DNA from: Butyrivibrio sp.
Lineage (GTDB): Bacteria > Bacillota > Clostridia > Lachnospirales > Lachnospiraceae
Reading direction: 5' to 3'
Length of the DNA: 34,999 nt
Assembly (NCBI GenBank): GCA_017446685.1
Contig: JAFSQI010000059.1
Span: forward strand, 1 to 34,999
Part shown: positions 4,025-34,835 of the stretch, in pieces
Layout: each line of letters opens with the position of its first letter
Numbering within the stretch: the first letter of the stretch is position 1
Program-made: the position numbers and the translations under genes
The notes under the pieces: generated by a model
Seen by the model: the letters and a program-made list of their open reading frames with translations, nothing else
Databases searched by the model: none
What the model was told of the DNA's origin: nothing

Positions 4025-5326
4025 TTATCGTCTTGATAGTTCATCAGTTATATCCTCCCAGCTGACATTTTTTTCAGCCATGAGGACCATCATATGATAC
4101 AGGAAATCAGACATTTCGTAAACTATTTCATTTGAATTTGGATTTTTTGCAGCAATTACCATCTCTGTAGCTTCCTCACCAACTTTCTTTAATATCTTGT
4201 CAAGTCCCTTATCAAAAAGATAGTTGGTATAAGATCCTTCCCTGGGATTAACCTTGCGATCTTTGATTACATCAAATACACTATCAAGAACCTTTTGAGG
4301 ATTCTTTTCGTTGTAATCCTTAGATGCAATTTCATTAAAGAAGCAGGAATAGCTTCCGGTATGGCAAGCTGCTCCAATCTGTTTTACTTTGGCCAAGATA
4401 GTGTCCATATCACAATCAGCAGTTAATGACATTACATATTGGTAATGAGAACTTGTTTCACCCTTGAGCCAAAGCTGTTTTCTGCTGCGACTAAAATATG
4501 TCATTTTCCCTATACTTAGAGTTTTATTATAAGACTCTTCATTCATATATGCCAGCATAAGAACCTGATCGGTTCTATAATCCTGAACAATAACAGGAAC
4601 CATTCCATCAGAATTTTTCTTAAGTTCATCCCATGTAAAAGCTGGTTCAAGCTGAGAAATTTTAATACCAGCAGATATGCAATCATCCTTTATTGATGAA
4701 ATATTATTTATATTATTTAAAATAATTTCGCCCGTTATTGCGCATATCAAATCATCATTTTTTAAAAAATCTGCTATATCAAAATCAGTATTTTCATCAT
4801 ACAAAGCTATAATTGGCAGATTTATTTCAGGTAATGAATCATCCGATATGTTTCTACAGATTTTAACCAGTTCACCTGCAAATTTTTCAACTGACGTTTT
4901 ATTTGAATTAACAGACTCTATCTCAGAAAAACAAATAACAATTTTATCTTTCCCAAATTTAGCAGATACCTCTTCTAAAATTTCAATATTAGAAGCTTTA
5001 GAAAAATTAAGACATGCCTTTTTACATCCTGCATAAAGCAGTTTCTTAATATCTTCCATTCTTTTTACATTTCCTGCACCAATAACAGGAACATCGGATA
5101 CTTTGCAGATTTCTTTGATAATATCAAGCGCCTTTTCATGTTCAATATCATTAGAAGGAGATTTATCGAAAACAATTATTTCATCAACACCACAATCAGA
5201 AAACTTTCTTGCAAGTTCAGCAGGTGTTTCCTCAAAAGCTTCACCCTCGCAGGACAAGTTTTTATAGGCTTTACAATTATATAAATAAATTGGTGCAATT
5301 ATTCTATTAACTGAATTCATTGACAT
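4025..5326 (-). CDS. hisIE: Histidine biosynthesis HisIE with a fused N-terminal HisF-like pseudoenzyme domain
   Basis: Catalyses steps 2 and 3 of histidine synthesis: HisE hydrolyses phosphoribosyl-ATP to phosphoribosyl-AMP, and HisI opens its purine ring. Of 433 residues, about 228-335 are HisI (metal motif DCDMD at 304-308, zinc-type C321 and C328 in ACHTGSYSC). Residues 345-433 are HisE (KVGEEATEMVIAAKN). Residues 1-225 align with the HisF barrel: RIIAPIYLYN corresponds to RIIPCLDVKDG, and VDEIIVFD and VPVIGAGNVKRMEDIKKLL also match. Both catalytic aspartates of HisF are replaced, so this part is probably not a working HisF. The start at 5326 was preferred over 5356 because AAAGGAG stands 9 bases before it and the longer version would overlap hisB. 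Confidence 0.92.
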   Translation of the reverse strand: MSMNSVNRIIAPIYLYNCKAYKNLSCEGEAFEETPAELARKFSDCGVDEIIVFDKSPSNDIEHEKALDIIKEICKVSDVPVIGAGNVKRMEDIKKLLYAGCKKACLNFSKASNIEILEEVSAKFGKDKIVICFSEIESVNSNKTSVEKFAGELVKICRNISDDSLPEINLPIIALYDENTDFDIADFLKNDDLICAITGEIILNNINNISSIKDDCISAGIKISQLEPAFTWDELKKNSDGMVPVIVQDYRTDQVLMLAYMNEESYNKTLSIGKMTYFSRSRKQLWLKGETSSHYQYVMSLTADCDMDTILAKVKQIGAACHTGSYSCFFNEIASKDYNEKNPQKVLDSVFDVIKDRKVNPREGSYTNYLFDKGLDKILKKVGEEATEMVIAAKNPNSNEIVYEMSDFLYHMMVLMAEKNVSWEDITDELSRR

Positions 5327-5327
5327 A

Positions 5328-5918
5328 TTAAAGAGCTCCTTTTGTGCTGAGTACATCAGTTATTCTGTTATCAATTGTCGTAGCTTCATCAAGAGACTTT
5401 GCGAAGGATTTAAAAAGTGCTTCAATTTTATGATGATCATTAACTCCTGTTATTACTTTAAGATGTAAATTCATGGCTGCAGAATAAGAAATTGCATAAA
5501 AAAATTCTCTAACCATTTGCGTATCAAATTGACCAACCATGGGAGTAGAAAAATTTGCATCCATAACAAAATATGGTCTGCCACAAAGATCAATTGCAGT
5601 CATAACCAATGTTTCATCCATTGGAAGAATTGAACTTCCATATCTTTTAATACCTTTCTTTTCACCAATTGCTTTGGCAATAGCCTGTCCCAATACTATG
5701 CCTGTATCTTCAATCGTATGGTGACAGTCCACTTGAAGATCACCATTGACTTTTACAGTCAAATCAAACAAACCATGTCTTGCAAAACCCTCCAGCATAT
5801 GATCAAAAAAGCCTATTCCGGTAGAGACATCGCTTTTACCCGAACCATCAATATTTAGCTTTATTGTAATATCTGTCTCCTTGGTTTTTCTTGCAACTTC
5901 AGAAATTCTACAATCCAT
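5328..5918 (-). CDS. hisB: Imidazoleglycerol-phosphate dehydratase
   Basis: Dehydrates imidazole glycerol phosphate to imidazole acetol phosphate, the sixth step after PRPP in histidine synthesis. It is a monofunctional 196-aa enzyme without the fused phosphatase of enterobacteria. The metal-binding histidine motifs are clear: GFFDHMLEGFARHG, DCHHTIEDTG and GVNDHHKIEALFKS, with LCGRPYFV between them. An AAGGAG ribosome binding site lies 9 bases before the ATG. It starts a second his segment after a 224-bp gap downstream of hisD and is followed almost without gap by hisIE. In many Clostridia hisC or hisH lies around here; neither is present. Confidence 0.96.
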   Translation of the reverse strand: MDCRISEVARKTKETDITIKLNIDGSGKSDVSTGIGFFDHMLEGFARHGLFDLTVKVNGDLQVDCHHTIEDTGIVLGQAIAKAIGEKKGIKRYGSSILPMDETLVMTAIDLCGRPYFVMDANFSTPMVGQFDTQMVREFFYAISYSAAMNLHLKVITGVNDHHKIEALFKSFAKSLDEATTIDNRITDVLSTKGAL

Positions 5919-6142
5919 AAATTGTATCTCCTTAAATTAATCAGGCAAAATATTGTTAATTTAATCTTATAAAAATTAAATAACTTGCAGTTTATAAACA
6001 GTTTAGAAAGATAACTTGCATTTTTAAATCAATTCAGTAAAATCACAAAAGTAATTTTATCATTATCGAGGTTGTTGACTCATTTGTTCAACGTTGACCA
6101 TTATGGTTTATCCTTTTTGATTGGAAAAAATCTAAAATATTC
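5919..6142 (-). promoter_or_regulatory. 224-bp hisD-hisB gap with possible promoter and repeated elements
   Basis: This gap interrupts an otherwise tightly packed his operon. On the minus strand TTGAAC and GATAAT are 18 bases apart, a possible promoter for hisB onward (inference). The 10-mer ATAACTTGCA (plus strand) occurs twice, at 5980-5989 and 6011-6020. An imperfect inverted repeat, AAAATCAC with GTAATTTT around AAAA, lies near 6039-6058. A 12-codon ORF (6063-6101, MVNVEQMSQQPR) has an AAGGAT-like sequence upstream but no other support. No known riboswitch or T-box is recognised. Confidence 0.35.
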
Positions 6143-7432
6143 TTATTCAAATCTCACTGCAATAGAATTTGCATGAGCAGTAAGCCCCTCTTCTTTTGCA
6201 AATAGCTCAATATCCTTATGAACCTTTGAAAGTGCATCTCTGGAATAAGAAATTATACTTGTCTTTTTCATGAAATCATCAACATTAAGAGGTGAGAAGA
6301 ATCTCGCAGTTCTGTTTGTTGGCAAAATATGATTTGGACCGGCATAATAATCACCAAGAGGCTCGGATGAATAATCTCCAAGGAAAATTGCGCCTGCATT
6401 TTTTATTTTTGTCATTGTTTCAAACGGATTAGCCGTTATAATCTCCAGGTGCTCAGAAGCTACAGCATTTGCAGCATCAATTGCATCCTGCATATTATCA
6501 GCCACGAAGATGTAGCCATAATTCTCAAGAGACTTTTTTATAATATCTGCTCTTTCAAGAGTTTGTAAAAATCCATCAATTTCTGCTGAAACTTCATCTG
6601 CAAGAGCCTGTGATGTAGTAACTAAAATTGCACTTGCCATTTCATCATGTTCAGCCTGTGACAAAAGGTCTGCAGCCACATATCTCGGATTAGCAGTCTC
6701 ATCCGCAAGAACAAGAATCTCACTTGGTCCTGCAATCGAATCGATAGATACGTGTCCAAAACAAGCCTTTTTTGCAAGAGCAACAAATATATTGCCGGGG
6801 CCCGTTATCTTATCAACTTTTGGAACTGACTCTGTACCAAATGCCATAGCAGCAATAGCTTGAGCACCACCGACCTTATAAACTTCATCTACTCCTGCTA
6901 TATTAGCTGCAACAAGAGTACCCGGATTAACTGAACCATCCTTTTGAGGAGGAGTGCACATAATAATTCTTTCAACTCCTGCAACTTTAGCAGGTACTAC
7001 ATTCATTAGAACGCTTGAAGGATAAGCAGCTTTTCCCCCAGGAACATATACACCTGAAATTTCAACCGGCAGTATTCTCTGACCAAGGATACTTCCATCT
7101 TCTCTGGTTTCAATCCAACTGTTTCTTTTTTGTTTTTCATGAAAAGAGCGGATATTCTCAGCACTCTTTTTCATAACTTCTATAAATTTGGGATCAAGAG
7201 CATTATAAGCTTTTCTTATTTCATCCTCGGTAACCTTAATTGTATCAGCTGTTATTTCACATTTATCAAAATTTGATGTATATTCAAAAATTGCTTTATC
7301 GCCATTATTTCTGACATTCTCAATAATATCATTTACTGTTTTTTCATATTCGGAAAAGCTTCCCGGATTTCTGTTTAAAAGATTACCCAAAAGTTCATTT
7401 TTTGTTTCTTCTGTAAGTTTAAGCGTACGCAT
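6143..7432 (-). CDS. hisD: Histidinol dehydrogenase
   Basis: Catalyses the last two steps of histidine synthesis, oxidising histidinol to histidine with two NAD+ in a zinc-dependent reaction. The 429-aa length is normal. Signature stretches include GVYVPGGKAAYPSSVLMNVV, YKVGGAQAIAAMAFGT, the family signature DSIAGPSEILVLAD, and LLSQAEHDEMASAILVTTS, which supplies the zinc and catalytic Gln/His residues. GPNHILPT near the C-terminus fits the His/Asp active-site region. The ATG overlaps the hisG stop by one base as TAATG, so translation is likely coupled. The reading frame is intact. Confidence 0.97.
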   Translation of the reverse strand: MRTLKLTEETKNELLGNLLNRNPGSFSEYEKTVNDIIENVRNNGDKAIFEYTSNFDKCEITADTIKVTEDEIRKAYNALDPKFIEVMKKSAENIRSFHEKQKRNSWIETREDGSILGQRILPVEISGVYVPGGKAAYPSSVLMNVVPAKVAGVERIIMCTPPQKDGSVNPGTLVAANIAGVDEVYKVGGAQAIAAMAFGTESVPKVDKITGPGNIFVALAKKACFGHVSIDSIAGPSEILVLADETANPRYVAADLLSQAEHDEMASAILVTTSQALADEVSAEIDGFLQTLERADIIKKSLENYGYIFVADNMQDAIDAANAVASEHLEIITANPFETMTKIKNAGAIFLGDYSSEPLGDYYAGPNHILPTNRTARFFSPLNVDDFMKKTSIISYSRDALSKVHKDIELFAKEEGLTAHANSIAVRFE

Positions 7433-25125: not shown

Positions 25126-26526
25126 TTATTCTTCCTCTTCTGTCTTATTTAAAGAAAGTAGCATCTTAGTAAAGTCTTCTTTCAATGTAACAACCTGACT
25201 TCTTGAAACATATCCCAATATCTCATCATTAAATATAGCCAGACAATTTTCATCATCCAATCTGTAAATTGCGATATTAAGTTCTGTTTCTGTATTTAAT
25301 GTCAAAGTAAATGAAAATTCAACTACATCACCGGATTCTTCAGAATTAAACTCCGTTATGCTTAGTGCTTCAATATCATCAAGAACAGTTGCACCATCGA
25401 CTTCTTTTTCACCCATGGAAAATACCACACCGGAGTTGTCATCAGTTTTAACATCTAATGTATATTCTTCTCCATCTACAACAGCTGTAATTTTCTCAAG
25501 TTTATCTTCTTCAACAGAAACTACAGCACTTGGTCTTAAATCATCATATGTCATGGATGAAAGCTCCGCATAAAGCTCGGCATCAAAATTATAGATAATC
25601 TTTGATCCATCCACATGTAAATATACTGTTTCATCATCCTTATGAGCAAAATAAATAGTAAACTCTGCCTCACTTATCTCGTCTTCATCTGAGAGTTGTT
25701 CAGTAGTGTACTCCGAATATTTGTCTCCCTGAATATATATAGTAAGGTCAGGATCATCAAAACCATAATCCGAAAGATCATCTTCCGAAGCCTTGTAAGT
25801 AACATAATCTGTATATGTTTCATTTGTAATATTGTTGATAAGACTATTCATATTGGTAGTTGAAACAGGCTTATACTCATCTCCCGAAACCAGATAATAA
25901 TCATAATTAGTGGAATATATGTACTCGCCTTCATCATCATAAATAATATCTAGTGTTTCATCAGTTGTTATCTTTATATTCTTAACCTGATAAAAATATG
26001 GGATTTTATCATTATCAAGGAAATCATCCCTTACACTTTCAAGGTTTTCGGCAATATCAGTTTCAACAAGATATACTGTACCTCCGTCGACACAGATATA
26101 TCTTTTTTCATCCATAGTTGAATAGGTTCCGGTCGTTATAACTGTATCACCTTCTTCAGTATGAAATGTTATTGTATGTTCAGGATCAGCAAGCCCATAT
26201 TGTTCATAATCCTCTACATCTTCAATAATAAAGCTGGCTCTTACATCTTCAAAATTATCCAAAAATGCGGAAAACAAGATTTGTGAAACCGGAAAATCTT
26301 CATCACCTGAATATTTCCATTCATCCTCTTCTTTTACAAAAGTAACCTCTCCTTCTTCATTAGTCCAGGAAACTGAAGTGAGCTTATCTTCATCTACCGA
26401 AATAACGGTTTCATCAATAGTATTAATACTGTCAACATGCTTCTCAACTGCATTTACAGCCACTATTGCACCACATATTACCAGTAAAGAAGCACACAAT
26501 ATTATCAAAGTTTTTTTACGCTTCAA
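25126..26526 (-). CDS. DUF4340 domain protein of a GldA/F/G-type exporter operon
   Basis: Membrane-anchored extracellular protein of unknown function that commonly accompanies Gld-type ABC exporters. The 466-aa product has an N-terminal anchor or signal (LIILCASLLVICGAIVAVNA, about residues 7-26) after a KRKK stretch. A long, strongly acidic extracellular part follows with DUF4340-like repeats (LTSVSWTNEEGEVTFVKEED, then YGLADPEHTITFH and later YGFDDPDLTIYIQG, about 160 residues apart). No lipobox cysteine is clear. The start appears to be TTG at 26524-26526, because a TGA lies two codons upstream; it overlaps the GldG gene by 11 bases. The repeat suggests two copies of one domain. The substrate of the exporter is unknown. 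Confidence 0.82.
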   Translation of the reverse strand: MKRKKTLIILCASLLVICGAIVAVNAVEKHVDSINTIDETVISVDEDKLTSVSWTNEEGEVTFVKEEDEWKYSGDEDFPVSQILFSAFLDNFEDVRASFIIEDVEDYEQYGLADPEHTITFHTEEGDTVITTGTYSTMDEKRYICVDGGTVYLVETDIAENLESVRDDFLDNDKIPYFYQVKNIKITTDETLDIIYDDEGEYIYSTNYDYYLVSGDEYKPVSTTNMNSLINNITNETYTDYVTYKASEDDLSDYGFDDPDLTIYIQGDKYSEYTTEQLSDEDEISEAEFTIYFAHKDDETVYLHVDGSKIIYNFDAELYAELSSMTYDDLRPSAVVSVEEDKLEKITAVVDGEEYTLDVKTDDNSGVVFSMGEKEVDGATVLDDIEALSITEFNSEESGDVVEFSFTLTLNTETELNIAIYRLDDENCLAIFNDEILGYVSRSQVVTLKEDFTKMLLSLNKTEEEE

Positions 26527-27985
26527 CCTTCACACCCGCCTTTCTCCTTCTAAGCACTTCTTCTACTCCATAAAACAAATAGAAAGCAGGTATTACGCCT
26601 ATCATTATGATCTTGATTCTCTTTGCAGCAGATTCACTTATAGTCAGATAATTATAATCAAGAGATTTAGACCTTATGGAAATAGTGTCTTCTTCTCCTA
26701 TCATCCAGGAAATAGCATTCATTACAAAATCAATATTGGCCCCGGAAGAATAGGAATTATATCCATCGTCAAGCATTACATCGCTTGCAATCCATACTAT
26801 TTTGCTTCCAAGATCAGAGCTTTCAACTGATACAGCAAGTGAAAAAGGTCCATCAATATCACCATCTTCTTTTTCATAGGTTTCAAGCTTATATCCAGCT
26901 ATTTTTGAAAAAGATTCTTCCGAAGTAGAAAGTAAACTTGTTGTCTCATAGTAGTCAGAATATCCCGTAACAGTAAGACCTGCTGAAACCGGAACAATTA
27001 CATTACTTTTTTCATCAATAAGAGCTTGAGTAATATCAGAAGTTTCAATTGTAGGTAAAAGAATATATGGTTGCGCAAATGCATAGCCATCCCTGCTTCC
27101 CTCTACAACAATTCCTTCATTAATTGTCACTCCAAGCGCCTCTATAATACTATTAAGATTTGTAAGCTCTGTATCCTCCTGTGCAGGTCCTGAAAATACC
27201 AGAAGTTTCCCACCATTTGCAACATAATCCTCAAGCATGGTTACCTCTTCTTCTGCCAAATCACTGGTTGGCGCATTTATTATAATCAGATTGGCATCCT
27301 CGGGAACTGCATCAACATTTAAAAGTGTAAATTCTTCTGTCTCAATATTTGCCTTTTCAAGAGCAGATGAAAAACTTTCTGAAATCTCACTTTCACCATG
27401 ACCTGTCAAAAGATAAGCCACCGGAAGGTCCTCTGAAACGACATAGTCAATTGCTGTTGTAATCTGACTTTCTCCGTCAAAACTGGATGAAACAGAGCCT
27501 GTCATGTAATAACTTGTCATATCATACTGATATATATCCTCATAACTTATATATCTATAGCGGTCTCCACACTCAACTATAAGTGAATTATTTGCCACTT
27601 CCTCTTCAGTGTACTGAGCTGCAAAAGTTGGATATACATCGGGATTTTTCTTAATTACTTCTATATGATCAGACATGCCATCATAAATGTTCAAAAGTTT
27701 TTCTATAACAGCATCTTCCTGTCCTGACTGAGTAATCCAATAAATCGTCACATCCTCGGAAAGATTATTTACTACAACTTTTGTGGAAGAAGTCACCGAA
27801 TAAAGCTGAGCTGCAGATATATCAAATTGTGTTATTGTAGCCGGAAGGGATCTCACAAAAACATTAATAGCTACAATTATAGCAAGCACAATAATAGAAA
27901 CGACAAAATTGTAACCACCGATCTTGGCAGTTCTTGTACTTAATGCATCCCTGTTTTTTCTAAGAGTTTCCTGAATATTAAACAT
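26516..27985 (-). CDS. GldG-type auxiliary protein of an ABC exporter
   Basis: Membrane protein with a large extracellular domain that works with an ABC-2 exporter. The 489-aa protein has a transmembrane helix at about residues 29-46 (VVSIIVLAIIVAINVFVRSL), the GldG-type opening SAAQLYSVTSSTKVVVNNLS and an extracellular region of about 400 residues. That region includes YLLTGHGESEISESF and LLVFSGPAQEDTE. A C-terminal helix (IIMIGVIPAFYLFYGVEEVL) and a basic tail follow. The ATG overlaps the permease stop as TAATG. In Bacteroidetes the family supports gliding, but similar operons in non-gliding Clostridia must do something else. The GldG name describes family only. Confidence 0.85.
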   Translation of the reverse strand: MFNIQETLRKNRDALSTRTAKIGGYNFVVSIIVLAIIVAINVFVRSLPATITQFDISAAQLYSVTSSTKVVVNNLSEDVTIYWITQSGQEDAVIEKLLNIYDGMSDHIEVIKKNPDVYPTFAAQYTEEEVANNSLIVECGDRYRYISYEDIYQYDMTSYYMTGSVSSSFDGESQITTAIDYVVSEDLPVAYLLTGHGESEISESFSSALEKANIETEEFTLLNVDAVPEDANLIIINAPTSDLAEEEVTMLEDYVANGGKLLVFSGPAQEDTELTNLNSIIEALGVTINEGIVVEGSRDGYAFAQPYILLPTIETSDITQALIDEKSNVIVPVSAGLTVTGYSDYYETTSLLSTSEESFSKIAGYKLETYEKEDGDIDGPFSLAVSVESSDLGSKIVWIASDVMLDDGYNSYSSGANIDFVMNAISWMIGEEDTISIRSKSLDYNYLTISESAAKRIKIIMIGVIPAFYLFYGVEEVLRRRKAGVKVEA

Positions 27986-28851
27986 TATCCGTTATACCTC
28001 CTCTTTTCAAGAGACTGAACACACAAGAATAAAAAGAAGGCTACAACGCTTATATAATAAACTATTCCGTTTATATCAAATACTCCGTTTACAAATACAT
28101 TAAATCTCTCATATAAAGACAGATTCTTCATAATATTGGGAAGTAGATTATCCAGCGTAGTGCTTCCGACAAAATAAGCTACAAGAACTGCACCTATTCC
28201 TAGTACAAAAACTATTGCTCCGGCGATAGTTGATTTTGTCATAAATCTCACAATAAAACCAATAATAAGACACATAACGACAAGAACCACCACTGAGCCA
28301 AATGCAGTAGCAGATACATAATCCGAAAGTGATGCACAAAAATAATTAAATAACATAACGGCTATACAGATACCTGCAGCCATTCCCTGAGATTCAGTTA
28401 ATGAAGAAATATACATTCCCATACTTATAAATGCTGCTCCCATAAAAAAGAAAGCAACAAGCGAGCCATAGGAAGTTGGCAGATAAACATCACCATATTG
28501 TGCAAATATCAATGGATATGCAGCAATAAAAATGAGCGGCATAACATACACACAAATCAACGAAAAAAACTTTCCCATCACTATTTCAGTCGAGGTGATA
28601 GGAAGTGAATACAATAACTGGTCAGTTTTTTGTCTTCTTTCTTCTGAAATAATCCTCATAGTAAGTATTGGAACAATAACAACAAACACAACTGATATAA
28701 AGCTAAGAACATACTCAAAATTAGCCACAGAGGAATTGATATTATAAAGCATTGCACCAATTCCTGTAAAAAGAAGAAGAAACGCTCCAAATACATATCC
28801 TGTCATATTATGATAAAAAAGTGATAATTCATGCCGTAACACTGCTGTCAT
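27985..28851 (-). CDS. ABC-2 type exporter permease (GldF type)
   Basis: Membrane-spanning subunit of an ABC exporter. The 288-aa protein has about six hydrophobic helices: near residues 17-35, 45-65, 98-120, 130-150, 160-180 and 195-245. A final segment near 265-283 is also hydrophobic. The short motif TMRIISEERRQKTDQLLYSLPIT between the second and third helices is the usual ABC-2 coupling region. The N-terminus sits in the cytoplasm, as in GldF. The ATG lies inside the end of the ATPase gene (23-base overlap), behind GAGGAGGTG. Confidence 0.9.
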   Translation of the reverse strand: MTAVLRHELSLFYHNMTGYVFGAFLLLFTGIGAMLYNINSSVANFEYVLSFISVVFVVIVPILTMRIISEERRQKTDQLLYSLPITSTEIVMGKFFSLICVYVMPLIFIAAYPLIFAQYGDVYLPTSYGSLVAFFFMGAAFISMGMYISSLTESQGMAAGICIAVMLFNYFCASLSDYVSATAFGSVVVLVVMCLIIGFIVRFMTKSTIAGAIVFVLGIGAVLVAYFVGSTTLDNLLPNIMKNLSLYERFNVFVNGVFDINGIVYYISVVAFFLFLCVQSLEKRRYNG

Positions 28852-29800
28852 ATGTCGTCACCTCCTCATCTTTTGTGAGTTCAATGAATATATCTTCAAG
28901 TGTTGTCTTAATTGGATTTATCTGCATTAAAGCAATATCTTTTGAAGCAAATGCCATGAAAATCTTTTTGCATACATTAAGTGGCTCATTTCCGTTTGCA
29001 TGAACACGAATTTTGCAAATATTTTCTTCTTCCATTAATATCTCTTTATCCTTTATTTCTTCAATATCTTCCAAAATTTCAAAAGCGCTTTCTTTATCAC
29101 AATCGCAGAATATTTCTATTACAGATTCCTGTTCCAGATTTTTACCCAAATTTTCAGGTGCATCAAAGGCAACCATTTTTCCTTTATAGATGATAAGTAC
29201 TTTATCACATATAGCCTGTACTTCAGACAAAATATGAGAACTTAAAATAACAGTATGTTTTTTTCCAAGTTCATTTATAAGTTCTCTTATTTCTAAAATC
29301 TGGACAGGATCAAGACCTACTGTTGGTTCATCAAGAATAACTATCTGTGGATCACCAACAAGCGCTTGAGAAATTCCTACTCTTTGTCTATAACCCTTAG
29401 ACAAAAACTTTATTGGCTTATCCAGAACATGTTCGATATGAGTTTCTTTGGCAACTCTTTCTATTTCGTCATTTTTTGATGCTCTTGCAACTTTCTTTGC
29501 ATCAGCAACAAAATCTAAATACTCTCTTGGGGTCTGATCAACATAAAGTGGTGGAATTTCAGGAAGATAACCAACTTTTCTTTTGGCTTCCCTACTATTT
29601 TCATAGATATCAAGATTGTCTATTTTTACCTCCCCCGAAGTAGGGGCAAGACACCCCGTAATAATATTAAGCGTTGTGGATTTTCCTGCTCCGTTAGGTC
29701 CTAAAAAGCCATATACATGTCCATCTTCAATGGTAAAAGACAAATCATCTACGGCAGCAAAATCTCCGTACAGCTTAGTCAAATGCGTAGCTGTAATCAC
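28829..29800 (-). CDS. ABC exporter ATP-binding protein (GldA type)
   Basis: ATPase that powers the adjacent ABC-2 permease. The 323-aa protein shows Walker A GFLGPNGAGKSTTLN, a Q-loop (GYLPEIPPLYVDQTPREYLD), the signature LSKGYRQRVGISQALV, Walker B QIVILDEPTVGLDP and the H-loop ILSSHILSE. About 100 C-terminal residues after the core are typical of GldA/CcmA-like members. The start codon is GTG at 29798-29800, with GGAGGA 8 bases upstream. A terminator ends only 27 bases before it, so the way this operon gets its transcripts is not obvious. Confidence 0.93.
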   Translation of the reverse strand: MITATHLTKLYGDFAAVDDLSFTIEDGHVYGFLGPNGAGKSTTLNIITGCLAPTSGEVKIDNLDIYENSREAKRKVGYLPEIPPLYVDQTPREYLDFVADAKKVARASKNDEIERVAKETHIEHVLDKPIKFLSKGYRQRVGISQALVGDPQIVILDEPTVGLDPVQILEIRELINELGKKHTVILSSHILSEVQAICDKVLIIYKGKMVAFDAPENLGKNLEQESVIEIFCDCDKESAFEILEDIEEIKDKEILMEEENICKIRVHANGNEPLNVCKKIFMAFASKDIALMQINPIKTTLEDIFIELTKDEEVTTYDSSVTA

Positions 29801-29918: not shown

Positions 29919-30335
29919 TTAGACAGAGAACGCAAAAAGAGCAAGTTTGGATATTATCAATTCTCTAATAATCATACCCATCTTTCCCTTTTCATCAGCA
30001 GAAATTCTGGATATTTCTTCAATAGTATAAATTTTCTCTTTAAATCCTTTTTCCGGCTTATCAGGATTTTTATATTGAGAAGTTCTTACTCTTGCTTTGA
30101 GCTGCCTGAATACTTTATAATCAAAACTCTCCGGTTCTATATAATAAAGATGGCTTTCCAAAGTAGTAGATAAATCAATATCATCCTTGAAATATTTTGT
30201 GATTATAGTTTTAAATTTAAACGGAACCATTTCATTATCAAGAAGTTCCAAATAATTATAACGGGCACCAAAATAATTTCTTTCTATATCCTGCATATAA
30301 TATTTGAAATCATCTTCGCCCACAATGTTATTCAT
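29919..30335 (-). CDS. Unknown 138-aa protein downstream of the sigma-like gene
   Basis: I do not recognise this protein. It is 138 aa, soluble, rich in Lys, Glu, Tyr and Phe, with a compact alpha/beta look. Distinct stretches are DIERNYFGARYNYLELLDNE and ITKYFKDDIDLSTTLESHLY, then YIEPESFDYKVFRQLKARVR and a hydrophobic C-terminus (IIRELIISKLALFAFSV). No signal peptide or clear membrane segment is seen. Its ATG begins 2 bases after the stop of the sigma-like gene, so translation is tightly linked, and a terminator follows. A role as binding partner of the sigma-like protein is inference from context. Confidence 0.8.
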   Translation of the reverse strand: MNNIVGEDDFKYYMQDIERNYFGARYNYLELLDNEMVPFKFKTIITKYFKDDIDLSTTLESHLYYIEPESFDYKVFRQLKARVRTSQYKNPDKPEKGFKEKIYTIEEISRISADEKGKMGMIIRELIISKLALFAFSV

Positions 30336-30337
30336 TA

Positions 30338-31096
30338 TTAGTTTTCTCCACTATCAAGATCTTCAATTTTATCGCCGCTAAATTTGATGGCACTTCTGAT
30401 TTTATCTTCATCCCAGCCGGTTTCTTCCATAAGCTCAGAAACAGTAACTTTTCTTCTAAGGTCTTCAGCAAGCTCTTTAGCCTTATCAGCCACCTCCTGT
30501 ACAAGCTTGACAACCTTCTGGCCTCCAGCATCTTCTGCAAGATTATCCTGGATAATTGCCTCCATCGCATCAAGCATCATCTTATAAAGAAAACTTTCAA
30601 CTTCTTTGGGTTCACCAACTACATCGAGCATTGTGACGCCTCTTGTAAGAGCAAAATTCCCCTCTCCAATCAAATCCTCAAGATAAACTCCCTGCTCTGT
30701 ATACATACGGGCTACATCTACGACAAGAGGAAGATAACACTCAATAAGTTTTGACTGAGCAATCTTATCTCCGGCAATAGCAGACATGGAAATAGCTTCT
30801 TTTTCGCCGTCACTGTAAGTCGGTAAATCTTTTAAAGCTTCCAGATAATCATTCAAATAATTGGTTTCTTCTTCAGTAAGATCATCCTCTGAATATTCCG
30901 GCTTAGTATCTACACCAATCTTATGGTTTTTCAAATAGTCAAAAACCATATCCATCTGATTTTCATCAAGATTAAGTTCGGAAAAAGCCTGCTCAACCTG
31001 ATCTTTTGAAATTGTATTTTTATTTTCTCTTGCTGTGCGAGTTACAAATTTAAGTATATCAGCAAATTCTTTTTCTTTATTATCAATATTTCCCAT
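30338..31096 (-). CDS. Truncated sigma-70-like protein lacking region 4
   Basis: Resembles the N-terminal half of a housekeeping sigma factor. Of 252 residues, about 10-65 look like region 1.1. Residues 80-155 match regions 1.2 to 2.2 (LNDYLEALKDLPTYSDGEKE, then KLIECYLPLVVDVARMYTEQ and LEDLIGEGNFALTRGVTMLD), the part that binds core RNA polymerase. At 160-190 the -10 binding and melting region is replaced (the usual FSTYATWWIRQAI reads VESFLYKMMLDAM). Residues 195-245 match region 3 (VADKAKELAEDLRRKVTVSE, LMEETGWDEDKI). No region 4 follows, and the stop is immediate. I chose the ATG at 31096, with GAGGAA before it, over the TTG at 31108. Whether it directs transcription or only binds polymerase is unknown. 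Confidence 0.85.
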   Translation of the reverse strand: MGNIDNKEKEFADILKFVTRTARENKNTISKDQVEQAFSELNLDENQMDMVFDYLKNHKIGVDTKPEYSEDDLTEEETNYLNDYLEALKDLPTYSDGEKEAISMSAIAGDKIAQSKLIECYLPLVVDVARMYTEQGVYLEDLIGEGNFALTRGVTMLDVVGEPKEVESFLYKMMLDAMEAIIQDNLAEDAGGQKVVKLVQEVADKAKELAEDLRRKVTVSELMEETGWDEDKIRSAIKFSGDKIEDLDSGEN

Positions 31097-31108: not shown

Positions 31109-31978
31109 TTATTTTACGTGTTGATGAGTAAAAAGATGATCTTGGCAATACTCATAATTTCCATTACATTTAGAGCAGAATCTGAATTCAAGATTAGGGT
31201 CATCCTTTTCTGTTCTGCCACAAACTGCACATTTGTGTCTTGTTACACCTGGAGGTGTCATTCTCACATTGCGATTAAAACTCTGTCTTCTTTTTACTTC
31301 TTTAGGTCTTAAATGACTAAGTTTTCCTGTCTGTATCCAGAAAAGCAAAAGGTTTATAAGCTGTGTACCAATTGCAAAAGCTACACAATAGTTATGGCCA
31401 GCCAAACCGGAAATCATATCATAAACCAGTAAAGCACCATAAAGTATTCCAAGATATTTAACTTTAATCGGTATTATGAACATAAGAAGAACCTGCATGT
31501 CAGGATACACAATGGCAAAAGCCAAAAATACAACCTGTTGCAAATAATATGTGCTAAAAAAGGCTGAATAAAAATACATTATCTGATAAGCAAGTGTAGG
31601 ATCAATAAGATAATATATCAGATATGCCAGAAATGCTCCGATTATCATCAAAAGCATTCCACCAAAAATAAAAAGATTATATCTGAAAGTTCCTATTGTT
31701 CTCTCCATGGTACTTCCGACAAAATAATAAAATATCAGTGTAATTATAATCAGAATACTAAAACTTGAAGGCGGGATCAAAATCCAGGATACAATTCTCC
31801 AAATCTGCCCCTGCAAAATCAATGCCGGATTAAGCGTTAGAAATGAAGTAAAATTCACACTTGCCGGAGCAAGCTGTAAAACATATCCGACAACATACAG
31901 GCCAATAATGTATAATGTCAGATTTGGAATAGCATATTTTCCAATTTTTCTTTCAAGATTATTTAAGAAATTATTCAT
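31109..31978 (-). CDS. Rhomboid-like membrane protein, catalytic serine missing, zinc-ribbon-like tail
   Basis: Has the fold pattern of a rhomboid intramembrane protease but probably not the activity. The 289-aa protein has six hydrophobic segments within residues 17-213, with the rhomboid/derlin-like GQIWRIVSWILIPPSS and FAIVYPDMQVLLMFIIPIK. Where rhomboids have GxSG in the fourth helix, it reads STYYLQ, so the serine becomes Y144. H195 may match the catalytic histidine. After a basic linker (RPKEVKRRQSFNRN) a cytoplasmic zinc-binding tail carries C250, C253, C268, C271, C278 and several His near 281-287. The ATG follows the sensor kinase by 24 bases, with a GGAG site. Confidence 0.83.
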   Translation of the reverse strand: MNNFLNNLERKIGKYAIPNLTLYIIGLYVVGYVLQLAPASVNFTSFLTLNPALILQGQIWRIVSWILIPPSSFSILIIITLIFYYFVGSTMERTIGTFRYNLFIFGGMLLMIIGAFLAYLIYYLIDPTLAYQIMYFYSAFFSTYYLQQVVFLAFAIVYPDMQVLLMFIIPIKVKYLGILYGALLVYDMISGLAGHNYCVAFAIGTQLINLLLFWIQTGKLSHLRPKEVKRRQSFNRNVRMTPPGVTRHKCAVCGRTEKDDPNLEFRFCSKCNGNYEYCQDHLFTHQHVK

Positions 31979-32002: not shown

Positions 32003-34786
32003 TTATTTTAAAAGCCCGGATAAAGTCTCCATCATTTTGGGAAGTTCATATGGTTTTATAACATAACCGGAAATAATATCCTCAAAACGTGTCACTTCAA
32101 TTATATCAGGCTGATTTTCTGTCGATGCAACTATAGGTATATTCGCCTTAACCGGATCCATAAGCTCTCTAATATTGCGCAATGCATTTATATTGGTCTG
32201 ATCAGACAAATTGATATCAATCAAAATAATGTCAAAATAACCTGAGGGAGCTGCATTCATCTTCTCATAGGCCTCAAAAGCATCATTAGCAATCTGAATT
32301 TCAAATCCAACCTTTTTCATGATACGCCCTGTAATCTGCTGATTGGGAACTGTATCTTCAACAATCATAATTCTCTTTCCATAGAAGTCATAGGCATTCA
32401 AGGTCTCATGATCATAGATTTTATAACTATCGCCGGTAGATTCACTCATTTTAAAAGGAATCTCAAATATAAATGAAGTGCCTTCACCTTCAACACTGTT
32501 AACAAAAATTTCACCCTGCATCTTGTCAACAATCTGCTTGGTTATAGCCATACCAAATCCCTGTATTTCACTTCCACCTTCTATAGTAGATTTATCCTCG
32601 TTATATGGATCAAAAATAGAACTGACAAGTTTCGGGCTCATACCAATCCCATTATCACGAATTTCAAATTTGAGCTTAATTTTATCAGAAACACTTTCTT
32701 CCTCTGAAACGATAAGATCGATCATTCCATTAGGTGGAGTAAAGTATACTGCATTGGAAAAAATATTCAGAATTACTTGCGTAAGTCTCATTTTATCAGT
32801 AATAATGTTAACGTGATTTACATTTTTTAAATCCACATTAATAATATGCTGTTTTTCAATTACAGCAGATGAAGTAACTGCTCTAACATCATTAATGACA
32901 TCATGCAGATTAACATTCTGCTCATCCAGATGCACCTGGCCACTTTCAAGTCTACTAAAATCCAACACATCATTAATTACACTTAAAAGCTGATCAGAAT
33001 ATCTGCTCATAGTATCAAGATACTCATTTCTAAGCTTCATGTCTTCCGTATGCTTTGAAAGGTCAATAAGACCATTTATTGAGTTAATCGGATGTCGTAA
33101 ATCGTGAGTCATATTTTTCAGGAAAATAATCTTCTGTCTGTTTGAATTTTCAAGAGCAAGTCTATCTTTTTCCTTTTCATTAAGTCTTTTTGACTTATTT
33201 ATTGATTCTCTTATCAAGATAAGGAACACCAACATTCCAATTATCGCAAAGATAATGGAAATCAGCATCAGATGATTTCTAACAAAGTCCTTAAATGTGT
33301 AAGTATATAATTCGTCCGTATAATTATATGCAAGATTCAAAATATAATCCTGCCCCAAAATATTAATACCTCTGTTAAGAAGCTTTAACAGTGCCTCATT
33401 TCCAATTTTTACACCAAAGCTCTTCTCATCAGCATATCCAAGCTGTCTAAAATCAAGATCTCTATATCTGTACTGCTTGAGTATTCCGTTTGTTCTTAAT
33501 CCGTCAAGAACTGTATAGCTAACCTTTCCATCAACAACCGCATCAAGACATTTATTGATAGAATCATACGAAGAAATCGAATAATCAGAATAATGAGAAA
33601 TAATGTAGTAATACTGAATCTTATTCAGTCCATTGACAGCAAAATCCGAACTACTTGTTCCCATATATTTGTCACTATAGATTAAATTAGCATAAGAAGA
33701 TATAACCTGATTTGATAAATAAACGCCATCTTCTTCCGAATAAAAAAGTCCACCGCCAACAGGGAATGCCATATCTATTGTATTATCTGAAATTGCATCT
33801 ACAATTTCTTCATAAGAATCGTATCCGACATAATTGATTTGCAGATCTTTTACTCCCAGATTATAAAACAACGCAGGAACAACATCTTTTACAATGCCTG
33901 TAACATTTCCCTTATTGTCTGTGTCACTGTATGGAAGAAAATCATTGAGATACCCTACTTTAATACTTGTGTTTTCTCTTATCCACTCTCTTTCTTCCAA
34001 AGTAAATGCCTTACTTGATAATGAACCGGCATAATATTTATTTCTTAAAAGACTGATATAACCGGGCTCCTCTATAAAAAGCTGTTCCTGTGCCTGATTT
34101 AGTTCTTTTAATAAATCGACTCTGTCAATATTAACCGCAAGATAGTAATCTGCTTCACCAAATGTATATAGTGTCTGCGCATGATTTCTGTCATAGGTTC
34201 CCTCATATTCTGTGGCAAGAACATCTACTTCTTTTTTGTCAAAAGCTGATAAAAGTGTGTCGTAATTTTTATAAGTAATAACTTTAGCATCTATATCATG
34301 CTCATCAAGAAAAAGATACAGGCTATCTGCAATTGCACTTTCAAGAACACCAATTGTCCTGTCATTAAGCGTAGATGGGTTAGAATTAATAGAATCATCA
34401 TCCTCATGCTTAACCAGACCATAATACTCATATCCCATAGTTTTCTCGGGATATGAAATAATCTTTTCTCTTTCTTCGTTTTTGGCAAGGCCTGCAACAA
34501 GATCCACTTCACCATCCAGGAGCATCTGATAAACATCAGCAAAATCGCCATATACATACTCGTAAGACCATCCGGTATACTCAGATAGCTTTCGATAATA
34601 TTCGTAGGCATATCCATTTTTTACGGCTCCATCATAAGCCCCTTCTTCAAAAAGTTCATTGGAATAATATCCTACTCTTACCACTTTATTAACTGTATTC
34701 TTGGAATAGCTGTTTATTGGAAAGGCAGTAAAACAAATCATAAAAGAGAAAAAAATGATAAATAGTTTTTTTACCTTAATATACAT
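32003..34786 (-). CDS. Hybrid sensor histidine kinase with two solute-binding-like sensor domains
   Basis: Membrane sensor of a phosphorelay. The 927-aa protein has an N-terminal signal or anchor (residues 5-22) and two extracellular SBP_bac_3-like domains at about 34-260 and 273-495 (VVRVGYYSNELFEEGAYDG; IKVGYLNDFLPYSDTDNKG), as in BvgS-type sensors. A transmembrane helix (504-527) follows. The kinase core has H561 in MTHDLRHPIN, the N box at N678 and DNGIGM at 711-716. The C-terminal receiver (805-925) has E810/D811, phosphoacceptor D857 and K911. No PAS, HPt or output domain is seen. The ATG at 34786 is chosen; a TTG at 34798 also opens the frame but sits too close to the AGGAG site. Confidence 0.93.
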   Translation of the reverse strand: MYIKVKKLFIIFFSFMICFTAFPINSYSKNTVNKVVRVGYYSNELFEEGAYDGAVKNGYAYEYYRKLSEYTGWSYEYVYGDFADVYQMLLDGEVDLVAGLAKNEEREKIISYPEKTMGYEYYGLVKHEDDDSINSNPSTLNDRTIGVLESAIADSLYLFLDEHDIDAKVITYKNYDTLLSAFDKKEVDVLATEYEGTYDRNHAQTLYTFGEADYYLAVNIDRVDLLKELNQAQEQLFIEEPGYISLLRNKYYAGSLSSKAFTLEEREWIRENTSIKVGYLNDFLPYSDTDNKGNVTGIVKDVVPALFYNLGVKDLQINYVGYDSYEEIVDAISDNTIDMAFPVGGGLFYSEEDGVYLSNQVISSYANLIYSDKYMGTSSSDFAVNGLNKIQYYYIISHYSDYSISSYDSINKCLDAVVDGKVSYTVLDGLRTNGILKQYRYRDLDFRQLGYADEKSFGVKIGNEALLKLLNRGINILGQDYILNLAYNYTDELYTYTFKDFVRNHLMLISIIFAIIGMLVFLILIRESINKSKRLNEKEKDRLALENSNRQKIIFLKNMTHDLRHPINSINGLIDLSKHTEDMKLRNEYLDTMSRYSDQLLSVINDVLDFSRLESGQVHLDEQNVNLHDVINDVRAVTSSAVIEKQHIINVDLKNVNHVNIITDKMRLTQVILNIFSNAVYFTPPNGMIDLIVSEEESVSDKIKLKFEIRDNGIGMSPKLVSSIFDPYNEDKSTIEGGSEIQGFGMAITKQIVDKMQGEIFVNSVEGEGTSFIFEIPFKMSESTGDSYKIYDHETLNAYDFYGKRIMIVEDTVPNQQITGRIMKKVGFEIQIANDAFEAYEKMNAAPSGYFDIILIDINLSDQTNINALRNIRELMDPVKANIPIVASTENQPDIIEVTRFEDIISGYVIKPYELPKMMETLSGLLK

Positions 34787-34835
34787 TAATAAAAACAAAC
34801 TCCTAAATTTTTCATAAATTTACTCATACAGAGTA

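Follow-up and report, generated by a model that had tools for sequence, protein, structure and literature searches.

The window analysed here is the whole of a 34,999-nucleotide stretch of Butyrivibrio sp. DNA (assembly GCA_017446685.1, contig JAFSQI010000059.1), and the gene in question, at 30338..31096, encodes a relative of the primary sigma factor (RpoD/SigA) in which the core scaffold of sigma and the acidic, asparagine-bearing face of helix 2.2 are preserved, and which has lost the residues expected to read the -10 element together with region 4. The start codon is an ATG at 31096 with GAGG 6 bases upstream, and the N-terminus MGN is found in 24/24 Butyrivibrio proteins (alignment A4) and in most, not all, proteins of the wider alignment A1. 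Residue counts below come from an alignment of 59 family members (the window protein, two more from Butyrivibrio and those of 56 genomes of other genera picked from the Lachnospiraceae match list) with 21 RpoDs (the genome's own and 20 picked). The gene and its parts are as follows.

30338..31096, minus strand: coding sequence of a putatively promoter-blind, region-4-less sigma70 paralogue, 252 residues (open frame and profile matches)
30902..31084, minus strand: region 1.1-like domain, residues 5-65 (Pfam r1_1 match below cut-off; hhalign alignment from RpoD residue 4)
30695..30874, minus strand: regions 1.2 and 2.1, residues 75-134 (RpoD alignment; model confidence; sigma2 fold match)
30632..30694, minus strand: region 2.2 helix with EDLIGEGN, residues 135-155, the presumed beta' clamp-docking motif (D141 and N147 in 59/59 members)
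30527..30631, minus strand: replaced region 2.3-2.4, residues 156-190, acidic and without the Trp dyad
30362..30526, minus strand: region 3.0-3.1-like segment, residues 191-245 (the protein ends 7 residues further on)

Homology to the primary sigma factor is significant. In the PDB the protein matches SigA of C. difficile (E 8e-13), the NCBIfam RpoD model PRK09210 matches residues 9-240 (E 2.5e-12), and alignment of the family with RpoD by hhalign (probability 100, E 2.4e-42) spans RpoD residues 4-265 of 370, from region 1.1 through region 3.1. A sequence-only reading of this DNA had picked out recognisable sigma regions, and the similarity is borne out. Pfam matches of the window protein to sigma regions 2, 3 and 1.1 (E 4.9e-5, 0.0045 and 0.0062) all lie below the curated cut-offs, as do its RpoD scores (46.8 vs 572 bits for PRK09210; 39.2 vs 354 for TIGR02393); several of its relatives pass the curated Pfam sigma-70 cut-offs (10 long-tailed or distant members were rescanned). 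Among the 54 rows of alignment A3, from which L128, L165 and L175 were left out, PRK09210 matches 54/54 at E <=1e-5, Sigma70_r3 matches 49/54 and r1_1 matches 35/54, the latter two at E <=0.01. The predicted model of the protein matches the sigma2 fold, with a predicted local distance difference test score (pLDDT) of 80-94 in 10-residue blocks from residues 71 to 140, and in a FastTree phylogeny the 59 members form a single clade, separate from the RpoDs (support 0.916, stem 0.78). By significant homology and by fold the protein thus belongs, in the evolutionary sense, to the sigma70 family, and its family, which occurs in many Lachnospiraceae, is best explained as having arisen by duplication of the primary sigma gene. 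No dedicated model for a promoter-blind sigma family was found in Pfam or NCBIfam, the matches being to general sigma models, and a literature search, in which subscription journals were little covered, found no published description of one. The RpoD frames of Butyrivibrio (L002, L205 and L206) have 478-592 residues, as against 362-392 in 17/18 of the other RpoDs fetched, and the two shown in the alignment carry an insertion near region 1.2.

Sites are given in what we take to be sigma70 numbering, anchored on the W433/W434/Q437 equivalence. This equivalence is given in PMC12000874. What is kept lies above all in helix 2.2, which reads EDLIGEGN in the window protein and LDLIQEGN in RpoD. The D403- and N409-equivalents (D141 and N147) are invariant in 59/59 members, and no other column is invariant in the diverse alignment A3; the E407- and G408-equivalents (E145 and G146) are kept in 57/59; the Q406-equivalent is Q in 24 members, G in 34 (the window protein included) and S in one. 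The acidic character of the helix has been kept or increased, with a mean net charge of -2.6 in the family vs 0.0 in RpoD, and the presumed docking motif for the beta' clamp helices is present as a sequence motif. What is lost lies downstream. The aromatic stretch of region 2.3-2.4, KFSTYATWWIRQAIT in RpoD, has become EVESFLYKMMLDAME in the window protein; the WW dyad occurs in 0/59 members (W433-equivalent 1/59, W434-equivalent 0/59, each 21/21 in RpoD), a Trp anywhere in residues 155-190 in only 6/59, and Q at the Q437-equivalent in 4/59 vs 21/21 RpoDs. At the T440-equivalent, which we take to be a -10 recognition residue, T is found in 0/59 members and E in 44/59, compared with T in 21/21 RpoDs, and the mean net charge of residues 162-190 has shifted from +4.0 (4 to 5) in the RpoDs to -4.8 (range -9 to 2). 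Mean retention of RpoD-conserved residues is 0.40 in region 1.1, 0.24 in 1.2, 0.53 in 2.1, 0.56 in 2.2, 0.12 in 2.3-2.4 and 0.29 in region 3; a permutation gave 0/100000, but the motif positions had been chosen after the data were seen.

The chain also ends early. Past position 245 there are 0-39 residues (median 8) in the 59 members vs 106-107 in RpoD, which leaves no room for region 4 after region 3 in any of them, and judged by position region 3.2 is absent as well. One weak Sigma70_r4 match occurs among 54 members (E 7.5e-4), at a position not located and in a member outside the ten rescanned. None of the 6 Sigma70_r4 matches in the window's own genome lies on the same contig, on which ground a region 4 supplied nearby was rejected, and no frameshift that would restore one is seen. 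The sequence-only reading had held that the core-binding part is kept and the promoter-reading parts lost, that the aromatic stretch is replaced and that the protein stops right after region 3; on every count it stands across the 59 members, which share both the truncation and the missing dyad. Without its -10 recognition residues and region 4 the protein would not be expected to work as a sigma70 factor.

The gene is a stable feature of its genus. An orthologue was found in 30/37 Butyrivibrio genomes searched, its own included, and in 19/19 of those at least 90% complete, the seven without it being 60-84% complete; a scan of a separate collection gave 32 loci, all from Butyrivibrio. The ratio of nonsynonymous to synonymous substitution rates (dN/dS) is 0.006-0.048 in 11/12 Butyrivibrio orthologue pairs, the dS of the twelfth not being computable, and the gene is thus under strong purifying selection in Butyrivibrio. 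More widely, the best 6 candidates per genome were scored in searches of the family (397 genomes) and the order (392 genomes). In Lachnospiraceae (profile A1), 86 rows in at least 85 genomes, with frames of up to 308 residues, rank before the first RpoD-sized row, and among the 150 matches listed a frame of <=330 residues occurs in 123 genomes, some of them perhaps contig-edge fragments. In the order sample (profile A3) the best 57 of the matches listed are all from Lachnospiraceae, and the next is a 364-residue frame from another family; in a class sample of 243 genomes the 6 that pass E 1e-54 are again all Lachnospiraceae, with some genomes of that family falling below. No member stood out beyond Lachnospiraceae in the order and class samples, where low scorers could hide among RpoD rows or beyond E 1e-54. 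At one locus (L162) two short sigma-like frames of 203 and 255 residues lie near each other on the same strand (1963-2574 and 4599-5366), and several members outside the locus type described below (L156, L161, L163, L165 and L172) end in histidine-rich tails with HHH runs. A phage collection gave 27 records matching at E 0.01, of which only the best, MT837372.1 (L209), was looked at; though labelled Bacteriophage sp., it is apparently a Lachnospiraceae chromosome fragment carrying a family member, with mutY, nrdD, nrdG, dUTPase and leuC recognised by eye as neighbours. As this best match reads as bacterial chromosome and no plasmid matched the family at E 1e-10, a phage or plasmid origin was rejected.

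In the window the gene lies between two others.

29919..30335, minus strand: f1, the downstream gene, 138 residues, 2 bases past the sigma-like stop codon; predicted half of a PCMH-type fold binding flavin adenine dinucleotide (FAD)
31109..31978, minus strand: f0, the upstream gene, a rhomboid-like membrane protein with a Cys/His-rich C-terminal tail, near-universal in Lachnospiraceae

The neighbour table, in which genes were picked by greedy open reading frame length, missed the f0 of locus L126 (G323), which is present in the f0 search. That search found f0 in 379/397 Lachnospiraceae genomes, and because it is far commoner than the sigma-like gene its adjacency is weaker evidence than first thought; a specific partnership with f0 was set aside. 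The protein has an invariant WR pair, its Cys/His-rich tail and no visible catalytic serine motif, and on this last ground f0 is possibly a pseudoprotease core gene. Of the 50 genomes in which f1 was found, 48 have it at most 200 bp away from the sigma-like gene. It was not found in 10/57 genomes with a sigma-like gene scoring at least 163 bits, though a contig ends at one or more of these genes (G207). Two genomes that are 69% and 84% complete have f0 beside f1 with no sigma-like gene between or adjoining. At locus L207 (genome G188, 4125-6411) ftsY lies between f0 and f1 in place of the sigma-like gene. At L169, L174 and L177 the neighbours are conserved: by eye, lepA- and hemW-like genes lie upstream of the sigma-like gene and a polC-like DNA polymerase gene lies downstream. 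Further out in the window, 25126-29800 holds genes for an ATP-binding cassette transporter, presumably of the gliding type, made up of an ATPase and a permease with two large proteins next to them. On the other flank, 32003-34798 encodes a histidine kinase of the hybrid kind in which two stretches are SBP_bac_3.

From an acidic helix 2.2 kept or strengthened, alongside the loss of the surface that reads positions -12 and -11, we infer docking on the beta' clamp helices without promoter choice. According to PMC4598750, sigma2 contacts the core mainly where region 2.2 meets the beta' coiled coil, and PMC7892883 describes phage T4 gp55 as using three acidic residues to dock on the same clamp helices. 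A mimic of this kind would bind core RNA polymerase (RNAP) and select no promoter, with its region 1.1 perhaps in the DNA channel; the most likely effect would be competition with sigmaA, the mimic holding the sigma site on part of the RNAP pool as a brake, a reservoir or a clamp-helix placeholder. In the Butyrivibrio-type subfamily, where the gene lies between f0 and f1, these two may control the availability of the mimic. That the family is such a promoter-blind competitor of sigmaA is a reading to which we give an even chance. Several points weigh against it. Q406 is, we assume, a core-binding residue, and its replacement by G in most members could weaken docking. Retention in region 1.2 is only 0.24, region 3 is poorly modelled (confidence <50 at residues 190-203 and 205-215), the conservation of D and N could be partly structural, and docking and competition are predictions.

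The loss of DNA contacts, and of Q406 in one subfamily, would also suit a sigma fold repurposed for a role unrelated to RNAP, the binding of which has so far been inferred from sequence. We consider this unlikely, as the two invariant columns of A3, D and N, both belong to the presumed beta'-contact motif, where retention also peaks. The same face bears on a mimicry like that of PhyR, in which the protein would leave RNAP alone and, by titrating an anti-sigma factor, set a genuine sigma factor free: the sigma-like domain of PhyR binds NepR (PMC5898713), and region 2.2 can be bound by anti-sigma factors (PMC4598750), yet it is the primary-sigma 2.2 face that is most conserved here, and neither an anti-sigma factor nor a receiver protein was recognised among the recurrent neighbour families, most of which were named by eye only. 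Moreover, these bacteria are not known to have an anti-SigA factor of general action, and the idea appears improbable. Similarly improbable is a part played mainly in elongation, where docking on the clamp helices would compete with NusG-type factors and affect pausing or elongation in place of initiation. The loss of promoter contacts would suit this, and PMC7892883 states that NusG can bind the same helices, but many members retain region 1.1, which fits initiation-phase RNAP better.

We think it very improbable that the protein supplies sigma2 and sigma3 to a bipartite sigma factor in which f1 or another protein gives region-4 function. The proximity of f1 speaks for such a pair, and so do two precedents: phage gp33 stands in for sigma4 without resembling it (PMC7892883), so that an unrelated fold can serve, and an integral membrane protein controls SigO-RsoA, according to the title of a reference cited in PMC10141391, a membrane protein gene lying upstream here too. 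However, the residues with which a sigma2 part would recognise the -10 element are gone and the charge of that surface is reversed. The candidate partner f1 has no PDB sequence relative and no consistent Pfam match (scattered weak matches in 1-2 of 29 members), and its predicted model resembles PCMH-type FAD subdomains, half of the fold, and no helix-turn-helix protein; this assignment comes from a second look at the Foldseek top 1000 matches, and other folds are possible. On these grounds f1 was rejected as a disguised region 4, and the genomes in which it was not found, with the f0-f1 pairs that lack a sigma-like gene, also tell against the bipartite idea. Of the roles offered by the sequence-only reading, the co-sigma dependent on the 138-residue protein is the least supported and the decoy or competitor the best, in keeping with what the protein has kept and lost. 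A pseudogene, frameshift or assembly artefact, as might be suspected where an essential gene has a shortened relative, is ruled out by the genus-wide conservation, the shared truncation and the low dN/dS, and deserves next to no credence.

The presence of region-4-less sigma copies in many gut and rumen Lachnospiraceae points to an unstudied transcription control. If the competitor reading is right, a large family of gut and rumen anaerobes regulates transcription through a second, conserved version of the housekeeping sigma factor, derived by duplication and unable to read promoters. It would be an anti-sigma-like device built from sigma itself that targets RNAP instead of an anti-sigma factor. 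A bolder and doubtful extension is that Lachnospiraceae have evolved RNAP-associated regulators of a new class, promoter-blind sigmaA duplicates on the beta' clamp helices. In one subfamily the fixed operon and the Q406-to-G change would tie the regulator to the rhomboid-like f0 and the half-FAD-fold f1, so that membrane or redox state sets the RNAP available to sigmaA. In practice, because several members pass Pfam sigma-70 cut-offs, automatic annotation may label such genes sigma factors and mislead regulon work.

Among known systems, SigO-RsoA of Bacillus subtilis offers sigma parts split over proteins and an associated membrane-protein gene, but it is an active two-subunit sigma, whereas no region-4 partner was found here. 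Phage T4 gp55, which acts with gp33, is likewise sigma2-like, itself lacks a sigma4 domain and docks on the clamp helices by acidic residues, as the family may do; unlike the family, in which the corresponding surface is lost and acidified, it reads a -10-like element. The sigma-like domain of PhyR from Alphaproteobacteria is also sigma-derived and no promoter-specific sigma. It is presumably of extracytoplasmic function sigma origin, is fused to a receiver and binds the anti-sigma factor NepR, whereas the present family derives from RpoD, keeps the beta' motif and has no receiver domain (Pfam gave none for the window protein, and the 25 families listed for the 54 members include none). SigA/RpoD, the group 1 sigma70, differs in possessing the -10 recognition residues, region 3.2 (by position) and region 4 that the mostly ~250-300-residue family, acidic in 2.3-2.4, does without; the two share co-linear regions 1.1-3.1, the sigma2 fold and the motif of helix 2.2.
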